DNA of 38,163 bases from assembly GCA_015039365.1 (NCBI GenBank), contig WION01000514.1, forward strand, positions 1 to 38,163. Direction: 5' to 3'. The notes beneath the pieces were generated by a model that searched no databases, had not been told where the DNA came from, and saw only the letters and a list, made by a program, of their open reading frames with translations. The position numbers were made by a program, and so were the translations under genes. This stretch comes from Amanita rubescens. Its lineage: Eukaryota; Basidiomycota; Agaricomycetes; Agaricales; Amanitaceae. The stretch's first letter is position 1, and every line of letters begins with the position of its first letter. Positions 6,772 to 21,499 of the stretch are shown here, in pieces.

Positions 6772-7105
6772 CTACTCAATGTGAGTCACTTGACTATAGA
6801 GTAACGTGACAAAATCTTGAACACCAGAGCCCATAAAGTTAGGAGTAATGTCAGTCTTCAGCTTCTGAACATAGCCTTTTTGCTTGTATTGATCCAAGGC
6901 CTCCATGATTGATGGCAGAAGTGGTTTATTGATCCAAAATGATATCTTTGCAATGATAATAATTGCTTGAAAGTTTAAGCATAAATCCAGTAAAAGTGAA
7001 AGGAGTAATTTACAAACTAAGATTTGGAAATCAGTAGGCTTGTTGAAATAGGATCAGTTGTGTACTACACAAAAAAAACAACAGAAAGACCTTGAAAGCA
7101 AAATT
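6772..7105 (-). other. Terminal exons of the GTPase gene, beyond the retrotransposon
   Basis: Acceptor TTGCAAAG precedes a 174-nt exon (6945 to 6772) encoding 57 residues and a stop. The peptide is protein-like, starting ISFWINKPLLPSIMEALDQY and containing TPNFMGSGVQDFV. Upstream on the same strand a TTT microexon (7014-7016) lies between CAAATCTTAG and GTAAAT. A 15-nt candidate exon (7091-7105, encoding NFAFK) lies between CAACAACAG and a weak GTCTTT donor. The introns are 68 and 74 nt. The phase (0) agrees with the rest of the gene. This piece would be unexplained without the gene on the other side of the element. Confidence 0.65.
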
Positions 7106-10100
7106 CTGTTGTTGCTTGTATCCAAAGATGGAGAAAAGCTCATGCTAATCATGAGATAGAGTAAAACATCTCAGTAGTACATAGTGTTACAACACGGTAC
7201 GGACTCCCGCATTATGATTACATGACACGTCGGACATGTTTATTTCCTTTTATCTTACCTTACTTGTCGCTCCCCTTATGCTCGATTCATACGGACTAAC
7301 TCGTTCCCTTTATTATACCATCCCTTGTTCCACATATGATGCCGTCTTTATACTTACTTTCGTACTTACCTTTATACATTAATTAGTACGTCTCATTGTA
7401 CTTGCTAGTATAAGTACCGCATGTATTCTAGAGTCGAACCCTAAGTTCGACTTAGCTGTTTATTGTCGTCTGACAATATAACCTTGCTCTTAAACTCATC
7501 TACCACAATCGTCCTCAGATCCTAAGTCAACGTCTTGACTTAGTATTGAACTTATAATCTTAACGTTTGACTTAAGACTTGTAATCGTGACTAGAGTTGC
7601 CGTTGCAACTTAGGTTGAGATTAACGAGTTCGTAACAATTAAGTCGAACTTATCAATAAGCCTGAACATCGATTCATTGGCATTTGATAACACACACTTC
7701 GACGAACTTCCGGAAAGCCAGCCCGTAGGTTACTGGCCACGTTGTCAAAACGGATTGGAGAGCTCCACCAAATAGAGCTACACGAGATCGTAAAGGGAAC
7801 TACGTTCTTGACGGATACTACGTCAGACTAAACGGTGCAAAACGAATCTGGGAAGATACAGGAGGGAATCCAGTAAAAGAACAAGAATTCTGGATACCAC
7901 AAAAAGAAACTAGACCTCCGAATGAATCATACTATTACTTCGCAGATCTATATCTTCAGGAACAACACATCAGATTCGATCACCTCACAGAACGTTGGAT
8001 AGCATCCGAGACACAAGACTTTGTCCCTAACGAATACTTCAACACCCCTACTTGGATAAAAGGGACTGTTGATGCTCTACCGGAAAACTTAAGACCGAAA
8101 ACTCTCCTTTCCATACAGACAACTACAAAAGGCAAAAAGAAAGCAAATTTTGGCCTAAACGATAGTGAATCCGAGAAAGAAGAAGAAACAGATCAAAAAC
8201 CCGATCTATCTCTTGATTTTCTCAGTGACCTTTCAGTTGGAACGACACCAACACCTGCCCAACAACCGACCAATCCCGAACCAGGTCCTTCGAACCCTAA
8301 AGAAGAAAAGGACGAAGAAGACCCGTTTGACTCTGACAAAATCGAAGTAGACGAACTTAAACCCGATCCAACTCCACCACGCAGAGATCCATCACCCCCA
8401 CCATCACCAAGAATGTCTGGAGGAAGTACAGACCCTATACCCAACCCACGAACCCCTAGTCTCATCGGAGATCTCCCTGAATTTAAAGGGAAGCGAAAGG
8501 ATGCCAATACGTTCATAGAAGATATCGAAATCTTCTTTGACATGAATCCTGAACGGATGAATACAGACCGTTTAAAGATCCTTGCTGCCCTGAACAAGAT
8601 CTCAGATGGAGCTAGACAGTGGAAAAAGAATAAATTAGCGGAGTTACGAAAATCACGCGCTACCGTTGAAGGAGGCGTCACAAGACCCGCTTTATTCGAT
8701 GACTGGGAAGCATTCAAACTGTCATTCTTGACAGATTGGGGAGAAGTTGATCCAAGCGGAAATGCATACACGAAAATTCTCAATCTACAGAACAGATCGT
8801 CCATGAAAGGAAAGAAACAGATGACCTTGCCTAATTACGTCAATCAGTTCAAGGAACAAATCACGAAAGCAGGAATCGAAGGAGAAGCAGCATTCCATAT
8901 GTTCGGAAAAGGACTTACAGCACCCGAGTTCGAAAAAGCAATGCTCATGAACCCAAAAACATTACAAGATTGGTACGACATTGCTATCAAACTCGACAAT
9001 ATCCGAACCCGTTCATACGCTTATTCCCCCCGATCTGGAAATGGTCATTCATCATCCTCTCATAACGACGAATCATGGGCTATGCAGATCGATCATAAAA
9101 TTCTAGAACAAGAAGAAGACCCAGAACTAGAACTTATGATCAGATCTATGTCCAAAGAAGAAAGAGAACGCTACATCAAAGACGGTTTATGTTTTATCTG
9201 CGGAATCAAAGGACACATGTCAGGGCAATGCCCGAAGAAGAAAAGAAACAAAGGGAAAGGCCGATTTAAAGGAGGGAGGAAAAGAGGATTCACGCCCAAA
9301 CGTCACATTCGAGCCACATCAAATGATGGTGACGGAAATTGGGAAGAAGAAGAAGTCCGAGAGTCTAAACCAAATTACACCAAGAACATCCGAGCGCTGA
9401 TGAAAGGGATGTCAACCGACGAAAAGAATGATCTATTATTATCTCTTGCCGATGATAACGAGGATTTTTGACAGTGGGACTCATGACAGTGGATGAAGTC
9501 TCAGACACACCAGATTCAACTCTCGATATATCTCATGTAACAGTACAATCTATTTCGAAACGAAGATTATCTGTCCCTATCAAAGTTGAAACTGAAAACA
9601 ACACTGAAAACCTCGTTGCCCTTGTCGACTGCGGAGCCGAAGGGGTATTTATCGACAAAAGGATAGCACACAAATGGAGAAAACGAAAAACTCTACGACC
9701 AATTAGAGTTTATAACGTCGATGGCACCATAAACAAAGAAGGAGAAATTGATGAACAATGTCTAATCACCTTCGAAATGAACGGAAAACGCATGACAGAA
9801 TGGTTTTACGTATCAGCAATAGGAAAACAAACGGTTATACTGGGGCTTCCTTGGTTAGAGAAGCATAACCCTGACGTAAATTGGAGAGAAAAGACTCTAG
9901 AGTTCCGAGACTCTGAACAGGACAAAATCAAGGCATCACTTCGGAGCATCTGTCAACAGATTGACAGAATAGCTATGCCTGAATGGGAAGAAAATCTCGT
10001 CATCGGATATTTGATGTCACACAAAGGATCACAGACGACAGATCACAGATGGAACACGCATACATTTGAGGATATAGGAAGCTGGTCAGAAGACGAATAC

Positions 10101-13100
10101 GACCAAGTAACTATCGCACGATATACACCAGCTCAACAAATGGAACACAAATACCATCAAACAGAGGAGGTTTACACGCTCCCTCCTGAATACTCGGCAT
10201 GGAAAGATGTATTCGAGAAAAAAGCAAGTGAACGATTCCCGGAAAGCCGATCTTGGGATCACCAGATAGAACTTCGCGATGATTTCATACCAAAAAGAGG
10301 AAAAATCTATCCCTTATCTCCGAAACAGCAGAACACACTGGATGAATGGATCAAAGAACATGTTGAAAAAGGCTACATCAGACCATCGAAATCGCCGCAG
10401 GCATCACCTTTCTTCTTTGTAGAGAAGAAAGAAGCACAAAAACTACGACCCTGCCAAGACTATCGATATTTGAACGAATACACTAAACCAAACGCATACC
10501 CATTACCCCTTATCTCCGATCTTATGATTAAACTCAAAGATTCGGAATACTTTACGAAATTGGACATCCGTTGGGGATATAATAACGTTCAAATCAAAGA
10601 ATCTGACAGATGGAAAGCCGCCTTTATCACCAATCGAGGTTTATTTGAACCTAACGTCATGTTCTTTGGATTACGAAATTCACCAGCAACGTTCCAAGCT
10701 ATGATGGACGATTATTTCAGGGATTTTACAGAAAAAGGATGGCTCGTCATCTACATGGATGACATGCTAATACACGCGCGCACTAAAGAAGAACTCGAGA
10801 TTCGAACAAAACAAGTACTTGAACGATTACAGAAACACGATCTTTACCTCAAGCTTGAAAAGTGTAAATTCGCTGCCAAAGAAGTTGATTTTCTAGGCAC
10901 TGTCATATCCAAAAATACAATAAAAATGGACCCGATCAAACTTGCCAGAATCAGGGACTGGCCAACCCCTTCTACCGTTAAACAGGTTAGATCCTTTTTA
11001 GGATTCGGAAATTACTATCGAAGGTTTATTTTCGGATTCGCCCATCTTGCACGACCCCTGCACGACCTAACAAAGAAAAACAAATTATGGACATGGACCG
11101 CAGAATGCCAAGTCGCATTTGATCTATTAAAAGAACGCTTCACATCCGCGCCTGTCTTAATGATGCCCGACGTTAACAAACCTTTCATTCTACAAACGGA
11201 CGCATCAGACCGCGCTATCGGAGCAGTTCTTATGCAGAAAGATGACAATGGCGACTTACACCCATGCGGATACCTATCCCACGCTTTAACACCGACTGAA
11301 ACACGATGGCAAATCTACGACCGAGAGTTATTCGCCATTTACTACGCTCTTTACAATGAATGGAGATACCTGCTTGAAGGAGCAGAACACCCTGTCATTA
11401 TTCATTGCGACCACAAGAACCTACTCTACTATCGAGAACCACAACGTCTTACAAACCGCCAAGCACGATGGTGGAACGACTTGTCTCGATTTAATATTAA
11501 ATTAACGCATGTTCCTGGAGCAAAACTAATAATAGCGGATGCTTTATCCCGCCGACCCGATCATATGACAAAAGATGAACCAGAAGAGTTAATAACAATG
11601 CTCCCAAAAGAACTCTTTATTCGCACGATCGCCGAAGATCTCCGTGACAGAGCAATAGAAATAACTGTCAAAGATGAATTCGCTCAATCAATCAAGAAAT
11701 GCCTAAAAGAAAAAGGAACACCGCCTTTACGAACAGCCCTTTCTGATTGGACCCTCGACAACGAATTAATCCTATACAAAGGGAAATCTTTTATCCCTCC
11801 TGACACCGATCTTCGCCGAGATATTATTAGAGATTTTCATGAATCACCAACAAGCGGACACCCCGGTTTCTTCAAAACACTAGCCTTATTAAAGGAATAT
11901 TACTGGTGGCCATTAATGTCTAAAATGGTTAAACAGTTTATTGACGGATGCACGGCATGTCAACAAATGAAATCAAATACTCACCCTACCGCCGCACCCC
12001 TGATGCCAATCAAGTCTCACGCACACCGACCCTTCCAACAAATAACCATGGATTTCATAACCGACTTACCCATAAGTGACGGTTTTGATTCTATCTTTAT
12101 CGTGGTCGATCAAGGACTTACAAAGGGAGTAATTCTCATGCCTTGTAATAAAACTATCACCGCCGACGAAACCGCCGACCTCTACATTCGGAATGTATTC
12201 AAAAATTTCGGTTTACCCAACATCATGATCTCCGATCGAGGACCACAGTTCGCATCACACGTTTTCAACGGCATAATGGACTCATTAAAGATCAAACATA
12301 AAATGAGTACCGCCTTCCATCCACAAACTGATGGACAAACGGAGCGATATAACGCCGAATTAGAAGCTTATCTCCGAATATTCTGTGCCTATGAACCAGA
12401 TACTTGGAACAAGATGATACCAATAGCACAATTCGCGCATAATTCACGCACTCATGAAGCGTTGAAACAATCACCCTTTCAATTGATGTATGGAACATCC
12501 CCGGTTGCACTTCCCCTTGTCTCAAATAAGACAAATACACCAACCGCCGATAACCGCATCAACTCTCTGTTCCGCGCACGAGAAGAAGCACTCGCCGCAC
12601 ATGATCTAGCACGAGCTAAGATGATGGAAAGAACAACGAGAAAGACTAAACTGTTCAAAGTCAATGACAAAGTATGGTTAGAATCTAGGAACCTGAAGAT
12701 TCCTTATCAGAGCAGAAAGCTCGCACCTAGACGAGAAGGTCCCTTTTCCATCAAAGAAGTCTTAGGACCAGTGACATATCGTCTCACGCTACCAAGACAA
12801 TGGAAAATTCATAACGTATTCCACGCCGCCTTACTAACGCCGTTCAAAGAAACTTCCTTTCACGGAATAACAGAAACAAGGCCCCCTCCCGATCTGATCG
12901 AAGGAGAAAAAGAATACGAAGTAGAAGCACTGCTTGCACATCGCAAGTTCAGAGGAAAATTACAATTCCTAGTAAAGTGGAAAGGCTATGACACCAGCGA
13001 AAACACATGGGAACCAGAAAATAACTTGACGCATATGGAAGACCTCCTTCTAGAATATAAAAGACGAAGGAAACTCTGAAATGTCACTCACATACCAAGC

Positions 13101-16100
13101 TATTATGCAAAATGGAAACGACACCACCGACGCCGTTCAGCACTTCCCCTGGTCTGAATTCTACGCTGGAGAGAACACCGACACCCGACTCACCACTCTC
13201 ACTGAACCCCACCGACCTCGACTCGTTCTTCATACCACCGACACCGACGAAGAAGACACTGACCCGAACGACTTCGTTGATGTTCCCTACAGATCTTCCG
13301 ATCAGACCTCGTCTCAAACGATCCTGGTCACTCCCACCGAAACCCAGGAAACCCATCACGGAACATCAGAAACTCTGGCTGTACCTGGACGAATTACGGA
13401 AGATCGCAATAGCCGACCGATCCCACCTAGAAACGCTGAAGACATTAGCGTTACCTTACATAGAGAGACGGTATCTGCCGGTCACGCTTCGACTCAACCT
13501 CATAACGAATCTATTCGAGGCAACAACCAGAGTCACGGTACAGATGGGACTAACCGCGATATGGCTAGCTCCATCATACGAACCACCCCCGATCTCTATC
13601 TCAGTTATCACGGAATTACTACTTACACCAAGGTTAGAGACCGCGTCACTCTGATCTGTAACGCCGCTAGACTACAAGTCGACGTCTTTGACCAAGAAAG
13701 GATAGCTCGAGTCTGGCGACTTCTCATGGACTTCCGAACCGCCACTACCCTTGCCGGTCAAGCCCGAGATCAGTACAATTATCATTGTGCCGATTTAATC
13801 GAAACGTTTGTAAACGTTACGTCACTATACTGGGAAGACGTTCATCCGAAAGGAGGAAATCTGGATCAATTGGCGATAGATCTATTACGACGACTTCTCA
13901 CAGCTGACATCGAACGCTATATCATCCTTGCTATAGAAAGCATTGACGATCAAAGATTTGGACTAAAGATACAGCCCCATGATCAGAATAACCGCATCGC
14001 TGTCAACCATTGGTTTCGCGCTACCGAAGCTACACCCGACCGACACCGAGCAACTAGATGCATTATGGAGACAGATCGTAAATCGAGAGAAATCTGGTGC
14101 CTCACCGGAAAGATCCGAGACCTCTTGTCCAGTATCCAAGGAGACACAGAATGGACTACAGCCGAATTCGCAGATGGAGTTCCCTTGCATCAACTCACTA
14201 GCGACCACATTGCGCAGATCAATAATGCGATCAGCGATCTCGATCTTCATCGCCGAATCCGTACAACAGGCAATCTCATTGAGGAAGAACCGAAACGAGA
14301 TAAGAAGGCTCCTCCTCCTCCTCGATCCGTATCACCCCCAACCACCACCGTTATTCGCCACGGAGTCTGGAATATTCCTGTCCCCACTACTCGACGACAC
14401 GACACTCCGCCTGCTCGACGACCTACGACCCGCAGTATGACCAATGCCGCCAACCAACGCCCTCACCGTTACAACCGTTGCATCCACTGCCGAGGTAAAC
14501 ATGCCTCTGAGGATCACCATCTCGCTACTACAATTCCTCCTATGTCTACTCTACCTCCACGCGCTCCCACGCGCCGACGCGATCCGACGCCCGGTCCTTC
14601 CACTAAGAAGAAAGGACGTTCTCGAACTACCACAGATGCCGCCAATACCCCCACTTCCACTAGCCGCCGCCCTCATCAGCCGAAGAAGAAGGGAAAAAAG
14701 AAGGCACACCACGCGTCACAGTGTCAGGCATGCGTCAACGGACGACAGTGCGACGGAGCCGACGACGACGCCTGCGATCTTTACGGCGACTACGGCTATC
14801 AGCACGACGACGACGCCATGCACAACATGAACACCTGAACGTTTTGTTGTTGCGGTCAACAACGTAGGGGAGAGCTAGTGTTACAACACGGTACGGACTC
14901 CCGCATTATGATTACATGACACGTCGGACATGTTTATTTCCTTTTATCTTACCTTACTTGTCGCTCCCCTTATGCTCGATTCATACGGACTAACTCGTTC
15001 CCTTTATTATACCATCCCTTGTTCCACATATGATGCCGTCTTTATACTTACTTTCGTACTTACCTTTATACATTAATTAGTACGTCTCATTGTACTTGCT
15101 AGTATAAGTACCGCATGTATTCTAGAGTCGAACCCTAAGTTCGACTTAGCTGTTTATTGTCGTCTGACAATATAACCTTGCTCTTAAACTCATCTACCAC
15201 AATCGTCCTCAGATCCTAAGTCAACGTCTTGACTTAGTATTGAACTTATAATCTTAACGTTTGACTTAAGACTTGTAATCGTGACTAGAGTTGCCGTTGC
15301 AACTTAGGTTGAGATTAACGAGTTCGTAACACATAGTACCTCATAAACCAGAATCACTCACCTGGAAATCAAGGAAAGTGATTTAAATGAGAGGAATGGT
15401 CACATCACTTGGCAGTGAGAGTGGGTGAGATGAAATGTAATCTTACAATCTACAATAACTTTAGTGTAAAAGAAGACAGGAAAAAGATAAGGCAACATGC
15501 TCACTTTCTGACATTAGTAGGATTTAATGGTATATCAAACATTCATGAATGATGGGATGCTGAGAATGCAGGTTAGAAAATTTGCAATGTCACATACAGC
15601 CTGTTGGTCATAGGAAAAGATGTGATGACACTGCCTTTCACAAATTGTGCAATGTCACTCACTCCCTGTTGGTGATAGGAAAAGATGTGATAACACTGAG
15701 TGCCTTTCAAAAAATGTGTAATGTCACTCACTGCCTGTTGATCATAGGAAAAGATGTGATGACATGCTTTTCACAAGATGTGCAATGTCACTCACTTGCT
15801 GTTGGTGATAGGAAAAGATGTGATGACACTGCTGCCTTTTACAAAATGTGCAATGCCACTCACTTCCTGTTGGTCATAGGAAAAGATGTGATGACACTGC
15901 CTTTTGCAAAATTGGCAATGTCACTCACTGCCTGTTGGCCATAGGAAAGAATTTGGTGACATTGCCTTTCACAAATTTGCAATTTCACTCACTCTCTGGT
16001 GGTCAAAGGAAAAGATGTGATGACACTGCCTTTCACAAAATGTCCAGTGTCACTCACTGCCTGTTGGTCATAGGAAAAGATAGGATAACACTCAAACCTT

Positions 16101-19100
16101 TCACAAAATGTGCAATGTCACTCACAAGCTGTTGGTCATAGGAAAAGATGTGATGACACTGTCTTTCACAAAATGTGCAATATCACTCACTCCCTGTTGG
16201 TGATAGGAAAAGATGTGATGACACTCAGGCCTTTCACAAAATTTGCAATGTCACTCACTTCCTGTTAGTCACAGGAAAAGATGTGATAATGCTGCCTTGT
16301 CACAAAATATGCAATGTCACTCACTCTCTGTTGGTCATAGGAAAAGATGTGATGACACTCAGGCCTTTCACAAAATGTGCAATGTCACTCACTTCCTGTT
16401 GGTTGTAAGAAAAAATGTGATGACACTGCCTTTCACAAAATGTGCAATGTCACTCACTTCCTGTTGGTCATAGAAAAAGATACAATGACACAAAATTTGC
16501 AATGTCACTCACTTGCTATTGGTCATAGGAAGAGATGTGAAGATGCTACCTTTCACAAAATGTGCATTGTCACTCACTTGCTGTTGGTCATAGGAAAAGA
16601 TGTGATGACACTGCCTTTCACAAAATGTGCAATGTACTGTCACTCACTTCCTGTTCATAGGGAAAAATGTGATGACACTGCCTTACACAAAATGTGTGAT
16701 GTCACTCACTCCCTGTTGGTCATAGGAAAAGATGTAATGACACTGCCTTTCACAAAATGTGCAATGTCACTCACTCCCTGTTGGTGATAGGAAAGATGTG
16801 ATGACACTATGTTTCACAAAATGTGCAATATCACTCACAATCTATTGGTCATAGGAAAGTATGTGATGACAGTGCCTTTCACAAAATGTGCAATGTCACT
16901 CACTGCCTGATGGTCATAGGAAAAGATGTGATAACACTCAAACCTTTCACAAAATGTGCAGTATTACTCACTCCCTGTTGGTCATAGGAAAAGATGTGAT
17001 GACACTGCCTTTCACAAAATGTGCAATGTATGTAACTCACCTGCTGGAAAAGATATGATAACAATGCCTTTCACAAATGTACAGTCACTCACTCCCTGTT
17101 GCCAGTCATAGGAAAAAATGTGATGACACTGCCTTTCATAAAATGTGCAATATCACTCACTCCCTGTTGGTCATAGGAAAAGATGTGATGACACTGCCTT
17201 TCACAAAATGTGAAATCTCACTCACAATCTGTTGGTCATAGGAAAGATGTGATGACACTGCCTTTCACAAAATGTGCAATATCACTTACTCCCTGTTGGT
17301 CATAGGAAAGATGTGATGACAGTGCCTTTCACAAAATGTGCAATGTTGCTCACTGCAACCTGTTGGTCATAAAAAATGATGTGAAATGATGTTATAACAC
17401 TGCTTTTCCCAAAATGTGCAATGTCACTGACAACCTGTTGGTCACAGGAAAAGATGTGATGACACTGCCTTTCACAAAATGTGTAATGTCACTCACAAAC
17501 TGTTGGTCCAAATAGGAAAAGATGTGATGACACTGCCTTTCACAAAATGAGCAATGTCACTTACTTGCTGTTGGTCATAGGAAAAGATGTGATGACACTT
17601 CCTTTCACAAAATGAGCAATGTTGCTTACAAACTGTTGGTCATAGGAACACAGGCCTTTCACAAAATGTGTGATGTCACTCACTCCCTGTTGGTCATAGG
17701 AAAAGATGTGATGACCGTACTGCCTTCATCAAATGTGCAATGTCACTCACATCCTGTTGGTCATAGGAAAAGATGTGACAACAATGCCTTCATAAATGGG
17801 GCAATGTCACTCACATCCTGTTGGTCATAGGAAAAGATGTGACAACAATGCCTTCATAAATGGGCAATGTCACTCACTCCCTGTTGGTCATAGGAAAAGA
17901 TGTGATGACACTGCCTTTCACAAAATGTGCTGGGAATGTCACTTACTTCCTGTTGGTCATAGGAAAGATGTGATGTTGCTGCCTTTCACAAATAAGCAAT
18001 GTTGCTTACAAACTGTTGGTCATAGGAACACTTAGGCCTTTCACAAAATGTGCAATGTCACTCACTGGCTGTTGGTCATAGGGAAAGATGTGATAACACT
18101 GCCTTCATACAGTGGGCAATGTCACTGACTTTCTGTTGGTCATAGTAGGAAAAGATGTGACAACAACGCCTTCATAAAATGGACAATGTCACTCACTGCC
18201 TGTTGGTCATAGAAAAAATGTGATAACAAAACATGTGATAACACTGCCTTTCACAAGATGTACAATTTCACTCACTCTCTGTTGGTCATAGGAAACAATG
18301 TGATGACATTGCCTTTCATAAATTTGCAATCAGTGTCACTCACAAGCTGTTGGTCATAGGAAAAATGTGATGACACTGCCTTTCACAAAATGTGCAGCAT
18401 CACTCACTGCCTGTTGGTTATAGGAAAAGGTGTGATGACACCGCCTTTCACAAAATGTGCAATGTCACTCACAATCTGTTGTTCATAGGAAAAGATGTCA
18501 TGACACTGCCTTTCACAAGATGTGCAGTGTCACTCACACGCTGTTGGTCAAAGGAAAAAATGTGATGACACTCAGCCTTTCACAAAATGTGCAACTTGTG
18601 TCACTCACTCCCTGTTGGTCATAGGAAAAGATGTGATGACACTGCCTTTCACAAAATGTGCAATGTCACTTACTCCCTGTTGGTCATGGGAGAAGATATG
18701 ATAACACTGCCTTGCACAAAATGTGCAATGTCACTCACAAACTGTTGGTCATAGGAAAAGATATGATGGCACTGCCTTTCACAAAATGTGCAATGTCACT
18801 CACTCTCTGTTAGTCATATGAAAAGATGTGATGACACTGCCTTTCACAAAATGTGCAATGTAACTCACTTGCTGTTGATCATGGTTCATAGGAAAAGATG
18901 TGATGACACTGCCTTTCACAAAATGTGCAATGTAACTCACTTTCTGTTGGTCATGGTTCAGAAAAGATGTCTTTCACAAGAATCTCCAAAGTCACTCACT
19001 TCCTGTTGGTCATGGGAAAAATAGATAGGACAGCTTTTCAGCATCATTTGCAATGTTACTCACATGCTGTTAACCATAGGCAACATTTTGATAAGGTCAT

Positions 19101-21499
19101 TTGAACTACTAAAACAACATGACATACTGCTTACCTGCTATTTATAGAAAAAGCTGTGATTTCACTGCTTTTCACAGAAAGTTCAATATAACTCACCATC
19201 TATATAACAAAGAATAAGTTTAAATTGTATGTGTCCAAATTATCTTGCACCAGAGTGGTGAGCATGCTGCATCACTCACTTCCTTTTAGGGTGGACAAGT
19301 TAGTGTATTGAGTTGGGGAAAAGACAATTCCACAGACTCTCTGTTACCATAGTTGTTCATCTGATGAATTTTCATGTCATGAAAGTATCACATACATCCT
19401 GTTCATTTTGCAATAGTTTATGAAGAGGCTTTGAAAGGGAAAAATTATAAATATTTACTATCTGTCATTTGAGGCAAGATGTAATGTTTATAAGCAGATA
19501 GAAAGGAGATGTCACTTACATCCTGTTATGAAACTTGTTGAGACTCTCTTTCAGATAACAGTAGTATGTCACCAACTTTCTATAGTTCATTCAGTTATCT
19601 ATGACTCTAAACTGCAGAAATGTCAACATTGCTTACTTTCTTTAAGCAGGTCAGATGTGATGTGAGGCAGTATTTTGTTACTCACTCCCTGTCCATGAGA
19701 GACTGGATTAACAAGTCTGCTTTCAGTGATAAATTAACTTACACGCTATTGGTCATATGATGTGCATGGGATCATTTACCAAAATCAGAATTGAGTCATG
19801 TCACTCACTTCCTGTAGATTATGAGACAAGATCTCTGATCACAAAAGACAGCATTACTTACAAACTGTTGTCATGAGAAAATATATCAGATTTATGTTAG
19901 TTCAATGTGACTTACCCACTGATATAAATAACATCAGGTCTTGCCACTAAGAATGTGGTGACACCTGACCTGTGTTTCACTCAGTTGTTTATTGGCCACC
20001 TGAAGTATCAGTAATTTTGTTTTCATGTAAAGGCATTGGAGTGTTGCTTACCTCCTGATGAACTTGTTGCAAATATTTATTATTTCATATGAAGGCACCC
20101 ACCTCCCTGTCCACCTATTTGCATTTGATTTTTCCTATGCTGAAGTGCAGTTGACAAAAATGCATACCCAGAAATGTGGAAATTTTGCAAAAACTATGAC
20201 AATGATATCATTCCATGTCCAATGTTGTTTATGGTCCAAGGCATGTCTGAACAATGTCAATTATGTCCATAAGTGACTTTTGAAAGTGGCCCTCACCGAA
20301 GTGCAGATTTAACACAAAGGTCAAGATTATTCATCTGGGTTGAAACAAACAGCTGATTCATGCTGTTATCATCTATTGCATCAGCAGTTTCCTGAGTTAA
20401 TTCAGCACAATTCATTTCTGGTAAATCCATGTCTATGAGACAACATTACTGCCATTTTTAGGGAGAAGCTCTCATCATTCTCACCTTCCAATTTCACATA
20501 TCCCTTGGGAGGATATTTGGCATTCAAAACTTTAGGAAGATAAACTTTCTGAAAAGTGATTTCAGCAATTTCCCTGGCTCTCTCCCACTTAACTTCATCC
20601 TTTGCATCAGGCAAGTTGACAAATTCACTGGCTATTTGACCATCAAATTTAGTGAATACAACCACCAAGGGGACTGTAAAGGAAATATTTATTAGTCAGT
20701 ACTATCAGATTTTGTGGCAAGTTGGCCAATGGAAAGGAGTTAAGGGGAACCAATCTCTCCAAAACCAATAAGATGACTTGTGAATTCATTATGACTTACC
20801 TCTGCCTGTCCCTTTATTAAAAAATTCAAGTTCTGCAGGTAAAACAGGACGAGGGCTGTCCATGGGTATACAGTACCTATAGGAAGCCAAGTCAGAGAGA
20901 CTATAAAGGGATAAAGCAAAATACCAGATTGCATGCAGCTGATTTTTTAGCTCAGTTTCTGCAGACTTCTTTTCAATGAACTCCCAAGCAATCTCCAATT
21001 CCTCAGTTGAACCAGATTCAAAACCCCGAGAGTCATGGAAGATAAAGTTACTTCCAGGGTATGTAATTTGATGCTCAATATCATGCTCGCCTCTCTGTTA
21101 TCATTGCATGTGAATGGGTACATCCATCTGACAGGGCCATAAATCATTATCTGACTCACCTCAATTGATGGCATCAAATGAATATCAGACTGTTTAAGCT
21201 GATTGCCTGCAAGAAATTCAACAGTCAAAAGAAGCACAAAACTGAGACTGACTTACCATCCTTGTTATATATAATGGGCTTTGCCCCCTTTGCCACACCA
21301 CAAACCTTCTCAAGGATGGTTGTTTTGCCTGCATTGGCCCTCCCGATGACAAGGATACGAAAGTGTGGGCATAGGTAGTGTTCTCTGAGTATTTGAACAT
21401 GTGCCTCATCTACATCTGATATGCATTAGTCAAGGATTAGCAATGCTGAGACTCATAAATCAGCCTACTCAAAGATGGTGCACCAGTTGTAGCTGCCAT
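6772..21499 (-). CDS. G-domain GTPase gene with ~71 single-codon microexons and an intronic retrotransposon
   Basis: P-loop GTPase of the MMR_HSR1-like type common in agaricomycetes. Its role is unknown; it is presumably cytoplasmic. Ordinary exons: 21469-21499 (ATG GCA GCT start), 21257-21415, 21160-21206, 20925-21094, 20800-20876, 20485-20673, 20297-20432 and 20168-20246. They sum to 888 nt in perfect phase. Motifs: G1 GRANAGKTT, G3 DSRGF, G4 TKFD. Then come, all phase 0: a 12-nt exon (20103-20114), GAG, a 30-nt exon (19970-19999), 15 single-codon exons to 19064, the homogenised array 19002-15598, AAA (15505-15507), ATT (15447-15449), a 15-nt exon (7091-7105), TTT (7014-7016) and the terminal exon 6772-6945. 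About 445 residues in about 84 exons if spliced as read. An 8.1-kb retrotransposon lies in one intron, antisense to the gene. The G domain is secure; use of the microexons is inference. Upstream non-ATG exons cannot be excluded. Confidence 0.75.
7180..7184. repeat. Target-site duplication (left), CATAG
   Basis: CATAG precedes the left LTR and recurs at 15332-15336 directly after the right LTR, as expected for integrase-mediated insertion of a Ty3/Gypsy element. Confidence 0.95.
7185..7637 (+). repeat. 5' LTR
   Basis: 453 bp with TG...CA ends and the short terminal inverted repeat TGTTAC/GTAACA. It contains palindromes: CTAAGT-TCG-ACTTAG at 7441-7455, and arms CTAAGTCAA (7522-7530) and TTGACTTAG (7535-7543) around a CGTC loop. 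If the element self-primes as proposed, R would start near 7442, leaving a U3 of about 257 bp. I did not find a clean TATA box. Confidence 0.95.
7640..7652 (+). promoter_or_regulatory. Putative self-priming primer-binding site
   Basis: Two bases after the LTR, TAAGTCGAACTTA is the exact reverse complement of 13 nt inside the same LTR (TAAGTTCGACTTA, 7442-7454). In Tf1 and sushi elements the mRNA 5' end folds back on the primer site and replaces a tRNA primer. Both 13-mers are nearly palindromic, which lowers the specificity of the match. I did not recognise a tRNA 3'-end complement here. Confidence 0.5.
7729..9471 (+). CDS. Gag polyprotein (first ATG at 8413)
   Basis: The frame is open from 7729, just after a TAG, to the TGA at 9469-9471. 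The first ATG is at 8413, giving 352 residues. The capsid-like part (from ~residue 20: GDLPEFKGKRKDANTFIEDI) is followed by the zinc knuckle C-FI-C-GIKGH-MSGQ-C (CX2CX4HX4C) and a basic tail. The 228 codons upstream of the ATG read like protein: mixed hydrophobic and aromatic residues (YVLDGYYVRLNGAKRIWEDT), then an acidic proline-rich stretch. No ATG in any frame occurs between about 7442 and 7919. A non-AUG start or an unseen splice is therefore possible; the safe call is 8413-9471. Confidence 0.85.
   Translation, partial: VTGHVVKTDWRAPPNRATRDRKGNYVLDGYYVRLNGAKRIWEDTGGNPVKEQEFWIPQKETRPPNESYYYFADLYLQEQHIRFDHLTERWIASETQDFVPNEYFNTPTWIKGTVDALPENLRPKTLLSIQTTTKGKKKANFGLNDSESEKEEETDQKPDLSLDFLSDLSVGTTPTPAQQPTNPEPGPSNPKEEKDEEDPFDSDKIEVDELKPDPTPPRRDPSPPPSPRMSGGSTDPIPNPRTPSLIGDLPEFKGKRKDANTFIEDIEIFFDMNPERMNTDRLKILAALNKISDGARQWKKNKLAELRKSRATVEGGVTRPALFDDWEAFKLSFLTDWGEVDPSGNAYTKILNLQNRSSMKGKKQMTLPNYVNQFKEQITKAGIEGEAAFHMFGKGLTAPEFEKAMLMNPKTLQDWYDIAIKLDNIRTRSYAYSPRSGNGHSSSSHNDESWAMQIDHKILEQEEDPELELMIRSMSKEERERYIKDGLCFICGIKGHMSGQCPKKKRNKGKGRFKGGRKRGFTPKRHIRATSNDGDGNWEEEEVRESKPNYTKNIRALMKGMSTDEKNDLLLSLADDNEDF
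9483..13079 (+). CDS. Pol polyprotein: protease, reverse transcriptase, RNase H, integrase, chromodomain
   Basis: Open from 9459; first ATG at 9483, in the -1 frame relative to Gag and 11 nt past its stop. Domains: aspartic protease with ALVDCGAEGVFID (Cys where Ser or Thr is usual); RT with YMDDMLIHA as the catalytic box; RNase H with QTDASDRAIGAVL and YDRELFAI; integrase with an HHCC zinc motif (HESPTSGH...GCTACQQ) and DDE residues in TMDFITDLP, ISDRGPQFASH and HPQTDGQTERYN; a GPY/F-like module (GPFSIKEVLGPVTYRL); and a C-terminal chromodomain (YEVEALLAHRK, FLVKWKGYDTSENTWEPENN). All catalytic residues are present. The chromodomain probably guides integration to marked chromatin. Expression probably needs frameshifting or reinitiation. 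Confidence 0.95.
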   Translation: MTVDEVSDTPDSTLDISHVTVQSISKRRLSVPIKVETENNTENLVALVDCGAEGVFIDKRIAHKWRKRKTLRPIRVYNVDGTINKEGEIDEQCLITFEMNGKRMTEWFYVSAIGKQTVILGLPWLEKHNPDVNWREKTLEFRDSEQDKIKASLRSICQQIDRIAMPEWEENLVIGYLMSHKGSQTTDHRWNTHTFEDIGSWSEDEYDQVTIARYTPAQQMEHKYHQTEEVYTLPPEYSAWKDVFEKKASERFPESRSWDHQIELRDDFIPKRGKIYPLSPKQQNTLDEWIKEHVEKGYIRPSKSPQASPFFFVEKKEAQKLRPCQDYRYLNEYTKPNAYPLPLISDLMIKLKDSEYFTKLDIRWGYNNVQIKESDRWKAAFITNRGLFEPNVMFFGLRNSPATFQAMMDDYFRDFTEKGWLVIYMDDMLIHARTKEELEIRTKQVLERLQKHDLYLKLEKCKFAAKEVDFLGTVISKNTIKMDPIKLARIRDWPTPSTVKQVRSFLGFGNYYRRFIFGFAHLARPLHDLTKKNKLWTWTAECQVAFDLLKERFTSAPVLMMPDVNKPFILQTDASDRAIGAVLMQKDDNGDLHPCGYLSHALTPTETRWQIYDRELFAIYYALYNEWRYLLEGAEHPVIIHCDHKNLLYYREPQRLTNRQARWWNDLSRFNIKLTHVPGAKLIIADALSRRPDHMTKDEPEELITMLPKELFIRTIAEDLRDRAIEITVKDEFAQSIKKCLKEKGTPPLRTALSDWTLDNELILYKGKSFIPPDTDLRRDIIRDFHESPTSGHPGFFKTLALLKEYYWWPLMSKMVKQFIDGCTACQQMKSNTHPTAAPLMPIKSHAHRPFQQITMDFITDLPISDGFDSIFIVVDQGLTKGVILMPCNKTITADETADLYIRNVFKNFGLPNIMISDRGPQFASHVFNGIMDSLKIKHKMSTAFHPQTDGQTERYNAELEAYLRIFCAYEPDTWNKMIPIAQFAHNSRTHEALKQSPFQLMYGTSPVALPLVSNKTNTPTADNRINSLFRAREEALAAHDLARAKMMERTTRKTKLFKVNDKVWLESRNLKIPYQSRKLAPRREGPFSIKEVLGPVTYRLTLPRQWKIHNVFHAALLTPFKETSFHGITETRPPPDLIEGEKEYEVEALLAHRKFRGKLQFLVKWKGYDTSENTWEPENNLTHMEDLLLEYKRRRKL
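13081..14838 (+). CDS. Third retrotransposon ORF in env position, unknown function
   Basis: An ATG one base after the pol stop opens 585 codons in Gag's frame. There is no signal peptide or membrane segment, so it is not a typical Env. The first ~165 residues are low in complexity (T, H, D, N). Residues ~170-400 look helical (VRDRVTLICNAARLQVDVF, ERIARVWRLLMDF). Then comes a proline-rich basic part with a knuckle-like cluster CIHCRGKHASEDHH, a lysine/arginine tail and a cysteine cluster CQACVNGRQCDGADDDAC, ending in acidic repeats. The overall plan resembles a nucleic-acid-binding or Gag-like protein. Residues 1-165 may not be used, because a second frame there looks more protein-like. Confidence 0.7.
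   Translation: MSLTYQAIMQNGNDTTDAVQHFPWSEFYAGENTDTRLTTLTEPHRPRLVLHTTDTDEEDTDPNDFVDVPYRSSDQTSSQTILVTPTETQETHHGTSETLAVPGRITEDRNSRPIPPRNAEDISVTLHRETVSAGHASTQPHNESIRGNNQSHGTDGTNRDMASSIIRTTPDLYLSYHGITTYTKVRDRVTLICNAARLQVDVFDQERIARVWRLLMDFRTATTLAGQARDQYNYHCADLIETFVNVTSLYWEDVHPKGGNLDQLAIDLLRRLLTADIERYIILAIESIDDQRFGLKIQPHDQNNRIAVNHWFRATEATPDRHRATRCIMETDRKSREIWCLTGKIRDLLSSIQGDTEWTTAEFADGVPLHQLTSDHIAQINNAISDLDLHRRIRTTGNLIEEEPKRDKKAPPPPRSVSPPTTTVIRHGVWNIPVPTTRRHDTPPARRPTTRSMTNAANQRPHRYNRCIHCRGKHASEDHHLATTIPPMSTLPPRAPTRRRDPTPGPSTKKKGRSRTTTDAANTPTSTSRRPHQPKKKGKKKAHHASQCQACVNGRQCDGADDDACDLYGDYGYQHDDDAMHNMNT
13112..13654 (+). CDS. Overlapping ORF inside the third retrotransposon ORF
   Basis: 180 codons from an ATG 32 nt past the pol stop, in the +2 frame relative to the window. 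It starts with a T/P/S-rich region (METTPPTPFSTSPGL) followed by an amphipathic helical region (HQKLWLYLDELRKIA, RLNLITNLFEATTR). This looks more like real protein than the other frame over 13112-13590. Around the C5 run at 13586-13590 the better-looking sequence changes to the 13081 frame. That could be a -1 frameshift, a one-base indel in the homopolymer, or a true dual-coding stretch. Confidence 0.45.
   Translation: METTPPTPFSTSPGLNSTLERTPTPDSPLSLNPTDLDSFFIPPTPTKKTLTRTTSLMFPTDLPIRPRLKRSWSLPPKPRKPITEHQKLWLYLDELRKIAIADRSHLETLKTLALPYIERRYLPVTLRLNLITNLFEATTRVTVQMGLTAIWLAPSYEPPPISISVITELLLTPRLETASL
14866..14874 (+). promoter_or_regulatory. Polypurine tract
   Basis: AGGGGAGAG lies four bases before the right LTR and would prime plus-strand DNA synthesis. 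A 7-bp hairpin (GTTGTTG/CAACAAC, 14846-14863) lies directly upstream. Confidence 0.7.
14879..15331 (+). repeat. 3' LTR
   Basis: 453 bp. I found no difference from the 5' LTR on line-by-line reading. It is followed by CATAG (15332-15336), the right target-site duplication. Confidence 0.95.
15337..15597 (-). other. GTPase gene introns with two further single-codon exons
   Basis: On the minus strand an AAA exon (15505-15507) sits between AATGTCAG and GTGAGC, and an ATT exon (15447-15449) between ATTGTAG and GTAAGA. At 15361/15362 an acceptor TTTCCAG meets a donor GTGAGTG with nothing between them. Insertion of the retrotransposon is 30 bp further on. These introns (90, 55 and ~85 nt) are not part of the homogenised array. 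Confidence 0.55.
15598..19002 (-). repeat. Homogenised array of ~53 mini-intron + single-codon units
   Basis: The unit is 64-69 bp. On the minus strand each unit reads donor GTGAGTGACATTGC, a body with GTGAAAGGCAGTGTCATC, then TTTTCCTATGACCAACAG, then exactly 3 nt, then the next donor. I count 53 junctions: 52 with 3 nt and one with 6 nt (17354-17359). The triplets are GGA 12, GAA 7, GCA 6, CAA 5, AGA 4, TTT 4, ATT 3, and CTT, GAT and AAA twice each; GCT, CAG, GTT, CCA and CGT occur once. None is a stop. Two donors are changed to GTCAGT (17426-17431, 18124-18129). Units 17565-17632 and 17947-18012 form a higher-order pair. Plus-strand ORFs here are by-products of the repeat. Confidence 0.9.
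19064..20114 (-). other. Diverged single-codon exons linking the G domain to the array
   Basis: Reading away from the G domain: 12-nt exon 20103-20114, GAG 20052-54, 30-nt exon 19970-19999, then TGG 19916, TTT 19862, GAA 19809, CGT 19743, GGA 19686, AAA 19637, AAA 19577, GAT 19520, ATA 19459, GAT 19396, AGA 19338, GAA 19280, ATG 19197, CAG 19135 and CAT 19064 (lowest coordinate given). Introns are 46-80 nt with unrelated interiors. Most donors fit GTRAGN; weak ones are GTTGGT, GTCTGT and GTAAAT, and every acceptor is AG. The exact 3-nt exon length persists although the introns no longer align. Confidence 0.75.
20168..21499 (-). other. G-domain coding part of the GTPase gene
   Basis: Eight exons encode 296 residues. 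G1 RILVIGRANAGKTTILEKV is in exon 2; the G3 motif FIFHDSRGFESG is in exon 4; G4 VVVFTKFDGQ opens exon 6. Typical family segments follow (EDMDLPEMNCAELTQETADA, FVSTQMNNLDLCVKSALR), ending in FAKFPHFW. Each intron is 48-63 nt with GTRAGN-type donors except GTATTT (exon 4) and GTAGGC (exon 1). The spliced sum of 888 nt is a multiple of three, which is why the microexons start in phase 0. Confidence 0.92.

Follow-up and report, generated by a model that had tools for sequence, protein, structure and literature searches.

Predicted arrays of one-codon exons in a large, hypervariable gene family of the mushroom Amanita rubescens

The minus strand of the window, as we call the whole stretch of 38,163 nt of Amanita rubescens DNA analysed here (contig C456, positions 1-38163, from a 75.7-Mb assembly comprising 786 contigs), raises the question of whether a gene can encode part of its protein in dozens of consecutive exons of a single codon each. 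The array in this gene is probably spliced in just that manner, and it would then yield a fast-changing, probably disordered loop in the proteins of a large mushroom gene family.

Layout of the gene and its surroundings

The gene opens with a G domain in eight ordinary exons that end in phase 0, as the initial annotation had described; they join in frame to 888 nt (296 codons) and end FPHFW. The features are listed below; P0001 and P0008 are homologous proteins that are discussed further on.

21499-20168, minus strand: G domain, eight ordinary exons (21499-21469, 21415-21257, 21206-21160, 21094-20925, 20876-20800, 20673-20485, 20432-20297, 20246-20168)
20114-20103, minus strand: 12-nt exon, V-D-R-E, in frame, with AG before and GT after; conserved in paralogue chains
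20054-20052, minus strand: first one-codon exon, GAG, from the array parse
19999-19970, minus strand: 30-nt exon, V-A-N-K-Q-L-S-E-T-Q, in frame, matching TNEQLSET in P0001 and MANKQLSEAQ in P0008
19918-19280, minus strand: anchor, W F E R G K K D I D R E in twelve successive one-codon exons; the alignment covers 17 non-redundant paralogues, and P0001 and P0008 contain the peptide
19199-15505, minus strand: variable array of 57 micro-exons (56 of 3 nt, one of 6 nt) in tandem units of about 65 nt
15449-15447, minus strand: candidate one-codon exon ATT after the array, with an equivalent position in paralogue chains
7185-15331, plus strand: LTR retrotransposon between array and terminal exon, with LTRs at 7185-7637 and 14879-15331 and a 5-bp target duplication, CATAG
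7105-7091, minus strand: candidate 15-nt exon
7016-7014, minus strand: candidate one-codon exon TTT
6945-6772, minus strand: terminal exon, ISFWINKPLLPSIMEALDQYKQKGYVQKLKTDITPNF...THIE and stop

Of the 70 micro-exons of the form AG-exon-GT between 20054 and 15505, 69 measure 3 nt and the remaining one (GTTGCA, 17359-17354) measures 6 nt; all are multiples of 3 nt, which makes for many short in-frame exons in one gene. After the first of them, GAG, comes the 30-nt exon, and from 19918 the other 69 succeed one another without interruption; within the variable array a tandem repeat of period 65 covers 15577-18954. The initial annotation had counted about 68 AG-3 nt-GT junctions in 15598-20114, with which our parse agrees (69 micro-exons there, 68 of them 3 nt long), and the intron range it gave, 46-80 nt, also holds throughout the run, the intron before the last micro-exon being 90 nt. 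The 12-, 30- and 6-nt exons keep the frame as it had claimed, while its 15-nt exon is a candidate with an uncertain junction, because the counterpart is 16 nt in C13, C254 and C46 and 15 nt in C35. The terminal exon, which had been called plausible, is kept in frame in 11 further segments (nine paralogous contigs and the near-copies C33 and C437) and is matched in pieces in a twelfth, C12; its start lies at 6945 or possibly, by homology, at 6965.

For neither the window protein nor the terminal domain did Pfam return a match above cut-off; PF01926 (MMR_HSR1) scored 20.3 bits on the window protein, just below its cut-off of 21.9. The window G domain is matched by the A. rubescens protein F5887DRAFT_1064134, and relatives such as P0003, P0023 and P0025 carry PF01926. 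The deposited model P0003 (248 aa), which belongs to the C33 copy of the locus, ends NLDLCVKSALR, before the tail, so that the annotation misses the array.

The LTR element is 8.1 kb long and its LTRs are equal at 453 of 453 positions, which indicates a recent insertion. Its ORF at 9468-13079 encodes reverse transcriptase, RNase H, integrase and a chromodomain, and we take the element to be of the Ty3/gypsy type. Two near-identical copies of the locus (L061 and L062) are without it, the empty site being present in L061; the element may have damaged or may disturb the window copy of the gene. Elsewhere in the window a tandem repeat at 144-1767 (unit 126 nt, 12.9 copies) has a unit that may correspond to 42-residue WD40 repeats like those of fungal NLR-type genes.

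Exon length and codon content of the arrays

The region 20060-15500 contains 134 YAG and 62 GTRAGY sites, from which about 1.8 pairs would be expected per distance; 59 are seen at 3 nt, and chance pairing of AG and GT was rejected on this count. No YAG/GTRAGY pair at 3 nt occurs in a control of 14 kb upstream of the gene, and the nine in another stretch of 16 kb correspond to its overlap with the 3' end of the array, where nine such junctions sit. In the array L076 (C56:29600-36000), 53 of 58 GTRAGY donors stand exactly 3 nt after YAG, the next commonest distance accounting for 7. This spacing is found at very different levels of intron similarity: mean intron identity is 98% in C13, 78% in the window and 59% in L076 (48% for shuffled pairs), and the units of C8, which are 56 nt long against 65 elsewhere, still hold 3-nt exons. 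Among the anchored junctions of 36 surveyed segments (218,691 nt), 602 had a donor no more than 40 nt away, and in 583 of these the gap was 3; a further 118 acceptor-like sites had no donor in that distance. A parser left free to choose exon lengths of 1-45 nt returned 3 nt for 866 of 1,033 exons, the remainder including ordinary and misparsed exons. The constant feature of the arrays is the exon length, even where the introns have diverged.

Two very uniform arrays, L063 (C13:579000-587000) and L079 (C749:900-4600), also contain triplets of 0, 1, 2 and 4 nt, 17 of 39 in C749. These are probably consensus errors at places where the units differ; C749 was used only for this inspection and for the genome-wide counts of 0-2-nt and 4-5-nt gaps. 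An assembly artefact behind the arrays as a whole would fit such odd lengths, which occur in the most uniform arrays at points of difference between units, but the diverged arrays (window, C35, C56), which cannot arise by collapse or polishing, share the exon length, and we give this explanation practically no credence.

The triplets were then considered as codons. Stops account for 1 of 445 junction triplets against 23.8 expected from base frequencies (23 segments, C13, C33, C437 and C459 having been dropped), and TAA or TGA for 2 of the 2,443 motif triplets genome-wide. TNA triplets are scarce in general, TTA and TCA being rare too, and because part of the stop deficit reflects this wider lack, the deficit is not used alone. 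The anchor offers a second line of evidence. Its consensus in the 17 non-redundant paralogues is W-F-E-Q-G-K-K-E-T-D-R-E, with an identity of 0.916 in the triplets, 0.825 in the introns and 0.955 across the six bases of the donor; of the 204 triplets, 193 occur with a length of 3 nt, 10 are missing and one has another length. For this alignment 5 of 32 rows were dropped as belonging to another branch (C56_29600, C10, C1_108381 minus, C737 and C718), and near-duplication removed 10 of the remaining 27.

The arrays contain 23 NAG against 219 NAA codons and 7 NTA against 138 NTT, and G or C in the third position 58 times against 609 for A or T (table without C33, C437 and C13, with C254 kept); the corresponding figures for the ordinary exons of the window gene are 32 against 37, 15 against 46 and 132 against 222. 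Since NTA would create a second YAG and NAG a tandem NAGNAG acceptor, the rarity of both supports real and accurate splicing. The same evidence bears on the idea of combinatorial splicing, by which the near-identical sites would be used selectively and one gene would give many in-frame loops. Every exon is in frame and freely skippable and the splice sites hardly differ, but the avoidance of competing acceptors points to accuracy, and such selective use seems rather improbable to us. As to composition, Thr, Cys, Met and Trp appear once each and Pro five times among the 445 distal triplets of the 23 segments; a codon set fitted to splicing may limit the amino-acid alphabet of the loop.

Homologous proteins and the predicted fold

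Two homologous proteins, P0001 (386 aa) and P0008 (311 aa), come from JGI contigs of 1,446 and 1,903 nt; both cross the G domain unbroken, where the window has eight exons, and continue with WFEKGKKESDREIEYDGG and WFEHGKKDTDKQIVYDGE, respectively. The one-codon exons of the window spell WFERGKKDIDREM, which scores 67 against P0001 and 61 against P0008; 2,000 shuffles reached at most 55 and 52, respectively. When the tails of nine paralogues, cut to 60 residues and with unclear exons omitted, were compared with both proteins, 17 of the 18 comparisons beat 500 shuffles; the best was C46 with P0008 (97 against a maximum of 47), the exception P0001 with C33 (59, shuffle maximum 63). P0001 and a consensus anchor coincide at 32 of 41 positions. 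From their shortness and unbroken frame the two contigs would be spliced RNA of other species. These species are not A. rubescens, whose best per-exon identities among the matches listed are 89% for P0001 and 78% for P0021.

To make the anchor peptide, A. rubescens would need to join one-codon exons, there being no other way for it to do so; no spliced genomic copy (retrocopy) was present among the genome matches listed. A protein search with the anchor gave no match, and one with P0021 residues 285-461 gave only P0021 and P0026. The tails of P0011, P0016, P0026, P0032 and P0042 do not score above shuffles against the window tail, and that of P0021 is marginal (3 of 2,000 shuffles reach its score). 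P0001 and P0008 are the closest proteins but are without the C-terminal domain, and the proteins that have it form a more distant branch.

The residue-by-residue assembly of the protein that the initial annotation had proposed is thus supported by the fixed length of 3, the few stops, the conserved anchor and the presence of the same peptide in RNA-like contigs; the window gene itself would be spliced likewise. A non-coding tandem repeat that mimics splice sites, in which the triplet is merely the most variable spot, would account for the tandem unit and for the odd-length triplets of C13 and C749. It is hard to reconcile with an exon that stays 3 nt despite differing periods and diverged introns, with the near absence of stops and with anchor codons that match homologous proteins; a satellite without coding role was rejected on the exon length, the scarce stops, the anchor conservation and the tail-protein matches, and we regard a repeat of this kind as highly improbable. 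The exons might also be real but mostly unused, the array being a relic that the main transcript skips or in which it ends. To splice each transcript some 70 times would be costly, and the deposited model P0003 does stop before the tail, but relatives carry the tail in RNA-like contigs, the codon choice avoids competing acceptors, and length and stop avoidance have been kept over thousands of units; we consider a disused array improbable, and splicing of the array into the protein remains our preferred reading.

The place of the spliced segment in the whole protein is suggested by P0021, P0026, P0032 and P0042, where a variable segment separates the G domain from a C-terminal part (for example CQVLAAMNIIAKLSF...DALDQFKRQDYTDKLKTCIT) that is homologous to the terminal exon of the window. 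In an AlphaFold2 model of P0021 (34 sequences, mean pLDDT 78.9) most of the G domain and the C-terminal helices are confident, while residues 295-357, in the variable segment, fall below a pLDDT of 50 with confident structure on both sides. By this model the variable segment is probably a disordered loop between the G domain and the C-terminal helices. Of the tail built one residue at a time that had first been described, the one-residue assembly is supported, but the segment lies between two folded parts. A fold search with the P0021 model found a GTPase-like fold, with no clear family beyond it: immunity-related GTPases top both lists, with poor superposition and nearly tied with other GTPases.

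Extent, turnover and possible origin of the arrays

The observation is larger than the initial annotation had said, as the window gene belongs to a large family and its distal codons are hypervariable amid introns that are near-copies. A genome search with the G domain gave at least 345 exon-level matches, near-copies included. The exact motif CCAACAG-N3-GTGAGT occurs 2,443 times in the genome, against 23 occurrences with 0-2 nt between CCAACAG and GTGAGT (17 of them in C13 and C749) and 10 with 4-5 nt (5 in C13 and C749); the reversed motif, as a control, gave 0, 0 and 2, respectively. The 15 arrays that were parsed, near-copies among them, have the exact motif at 329 of their 866 three-nt exons, and by a rough extrapolation from this fraction the genome may hold about 6,400 one-codon exons. 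The array L078 (C1:31600-33200), with at least 21 three-nt exons and diverged introns, was reached through a single exact motif match, and the exact-motif count therefore underestimates the number of arrays. Two seemingly isolated copies of the motif (C1:764513 and C1:32366) both lie in arrays, with 5 and 21 three-nt exons per 1.6 kb.

Beyond the anchor the tails of the paralogues look unrelated. Junction pairs whose 80-nt flanks are 95-99% identical share the triplet in 66 of 494 cases (13.4%) with C254 excluded, against 8.3% by chance, and in 26 of 273 (9.5%) with C8 excluded as well. Where the 80-nt flanks are fully identical the triplet is shared in 15.4% of 299 pairs, 253 of which belong to the one array C254, which may contain consensus errors; with C254 set aside the figure is 8 of 22. 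The 494 pairs are therefore the basis for saying that the distal codons vary almost independently of their flanks. C13 and C254, for instance, are 98.6% identical in the G-domain region, 99.4% in the next 900 nt and 97.6% around the terminal exon, and yet their tails are spelled differently, a difference whose existence is surer than its size, both having odd triplets. Between the proteins P0021 and P0026 the flanking domains match at 279 of 292 and 91 of 102 positions, but the variable part at 5 of 21 aligned positions, with 17 gap columns besides. The near-identical copies in the window, C33 and C437 show no change at 207-210 triplet positions and 4-8 changes at about 4,500 others; one whole unit present in C33 and C437 is missing from the window. 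In C8 a block of three codons has been duplicated together with its three introns.

Such changes suggest how the arrays might work and change. Each short intron would be recognised as a unit and removed, every step adding one residue. The repeated unit would consist of an intron and one whole codon in phase 0, with introns homologous over their length, and unequal exchange between similar introns could add, remove or reorder whole residues; as each unit is an intron plus a whole codon in phase 0, the frame survives. The array would then amount to a set of frame-proof codon cassettes, whose codons may be kept diverse among similar introns by selection or by targeted change. The loop might serve to recognise variable partners, of a self/non-self or immune type, a guess made from the variability alone. 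It is possible, and we put it forward tentatively, that the whole forms a codon-cassette system across the genome, with several thousand one-codon exons in a large family of immune-type GTPases, whose recognition loop is rewritten by intron exchange with the frame kept safe, and in which selective splicing may add variants.

For the origin of the arrays there is a serious rival, compatible with the splicing model, in which mobile introns (introners) invaded a contiguous coding linker after each codon, making the codons old and the introns young. It would suit both the near independence of the triplets from flanks that are 95-99% identical and the one intron consensus common to the contigs, but it is difficult to see why introns should insert after each codon without exception, the three-codon block of C8 was duplicated along with its introns, and the two seemingly isolated motif copies examined both proved to lie in arrays. 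We think such an origin unlikely, without dismissing it. The introner-like elements of fungi are near-identical copies of a spliceosomal intron in unrelated genes (PMC4457414); the array introns of Amanita are near-identical copies too, but follow one another at intervals of one codon within a single gene family.

No report of one-codon exon arrays was found in the literature searched, preprints and most subscription papers being outside its reach. Recursive splicing removes introns stepwise at AG/GT ratchet points and leaves no exon. It resembles the splicing proposed here in that a 3' splice site lies next to the following 5' splice site and removal is stepwise; it differs in that a ratchet point has zero length, whereas the exons of the Amanita array measure 3 nt and each step would leave one codon. 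A zero-length junction, TTTCCAG/GTGAGT, is found at 15361-15362, within the long intron that follows the ATT exon, with TTTCCAG/GTATGT equivalently placed in C35, and is a possible ratchet point.

Other systems share single features with the Amanita genes, so far as the passages cited describe them. The MEG genes of schistosomes produce variable proteins from many short, mostly in-frame exons and are missed by standard annotation; their short exons number 10 to 20 and measure 6-81 bp (3-81 in the abstract), mostly 15 bp, and their introns measure 0.1-5 kb (PMC10526429). Many short in-frame exons are found in the Amanita gene as well, but it has dozens of one-codon exons, and its introns, in tandem copies, measure 46-80 nt (one 90) instead of 0.1-5 kb. 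The bicycle and megacycle genes of aphids are likewise a fast-evolving family with many small exons, more than 100 microexons in megacycle genes; almost all their internal exons, however, have phase 2, they are more than single codons, and the passages cited make no mention of tandem intron copies (PMC9168663). Isolated micro-exons of 1 and 3 nt are spliced in plant APC11 and VPS55 and in Drosophila homothorax (PMC8831610, PMC7392893), and these are single cases in ordinary genes, not runs of dozens.

If the arrays are spliced as we propose, they hold in-frame exons at the lowest possible size, one codon, dozens of them consecutively, and test how far intron definition can reach; the limits of spliceosome accuracy would become directly testable. 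Similar genes may hide in other genomes, since the deposited model of one copy stops before the tail. For the proteins of this mushroom family the arrays suggest a new route of evolution, in which separable single codons and recombining spacers would permit fast change of length and sequence without frameshift.
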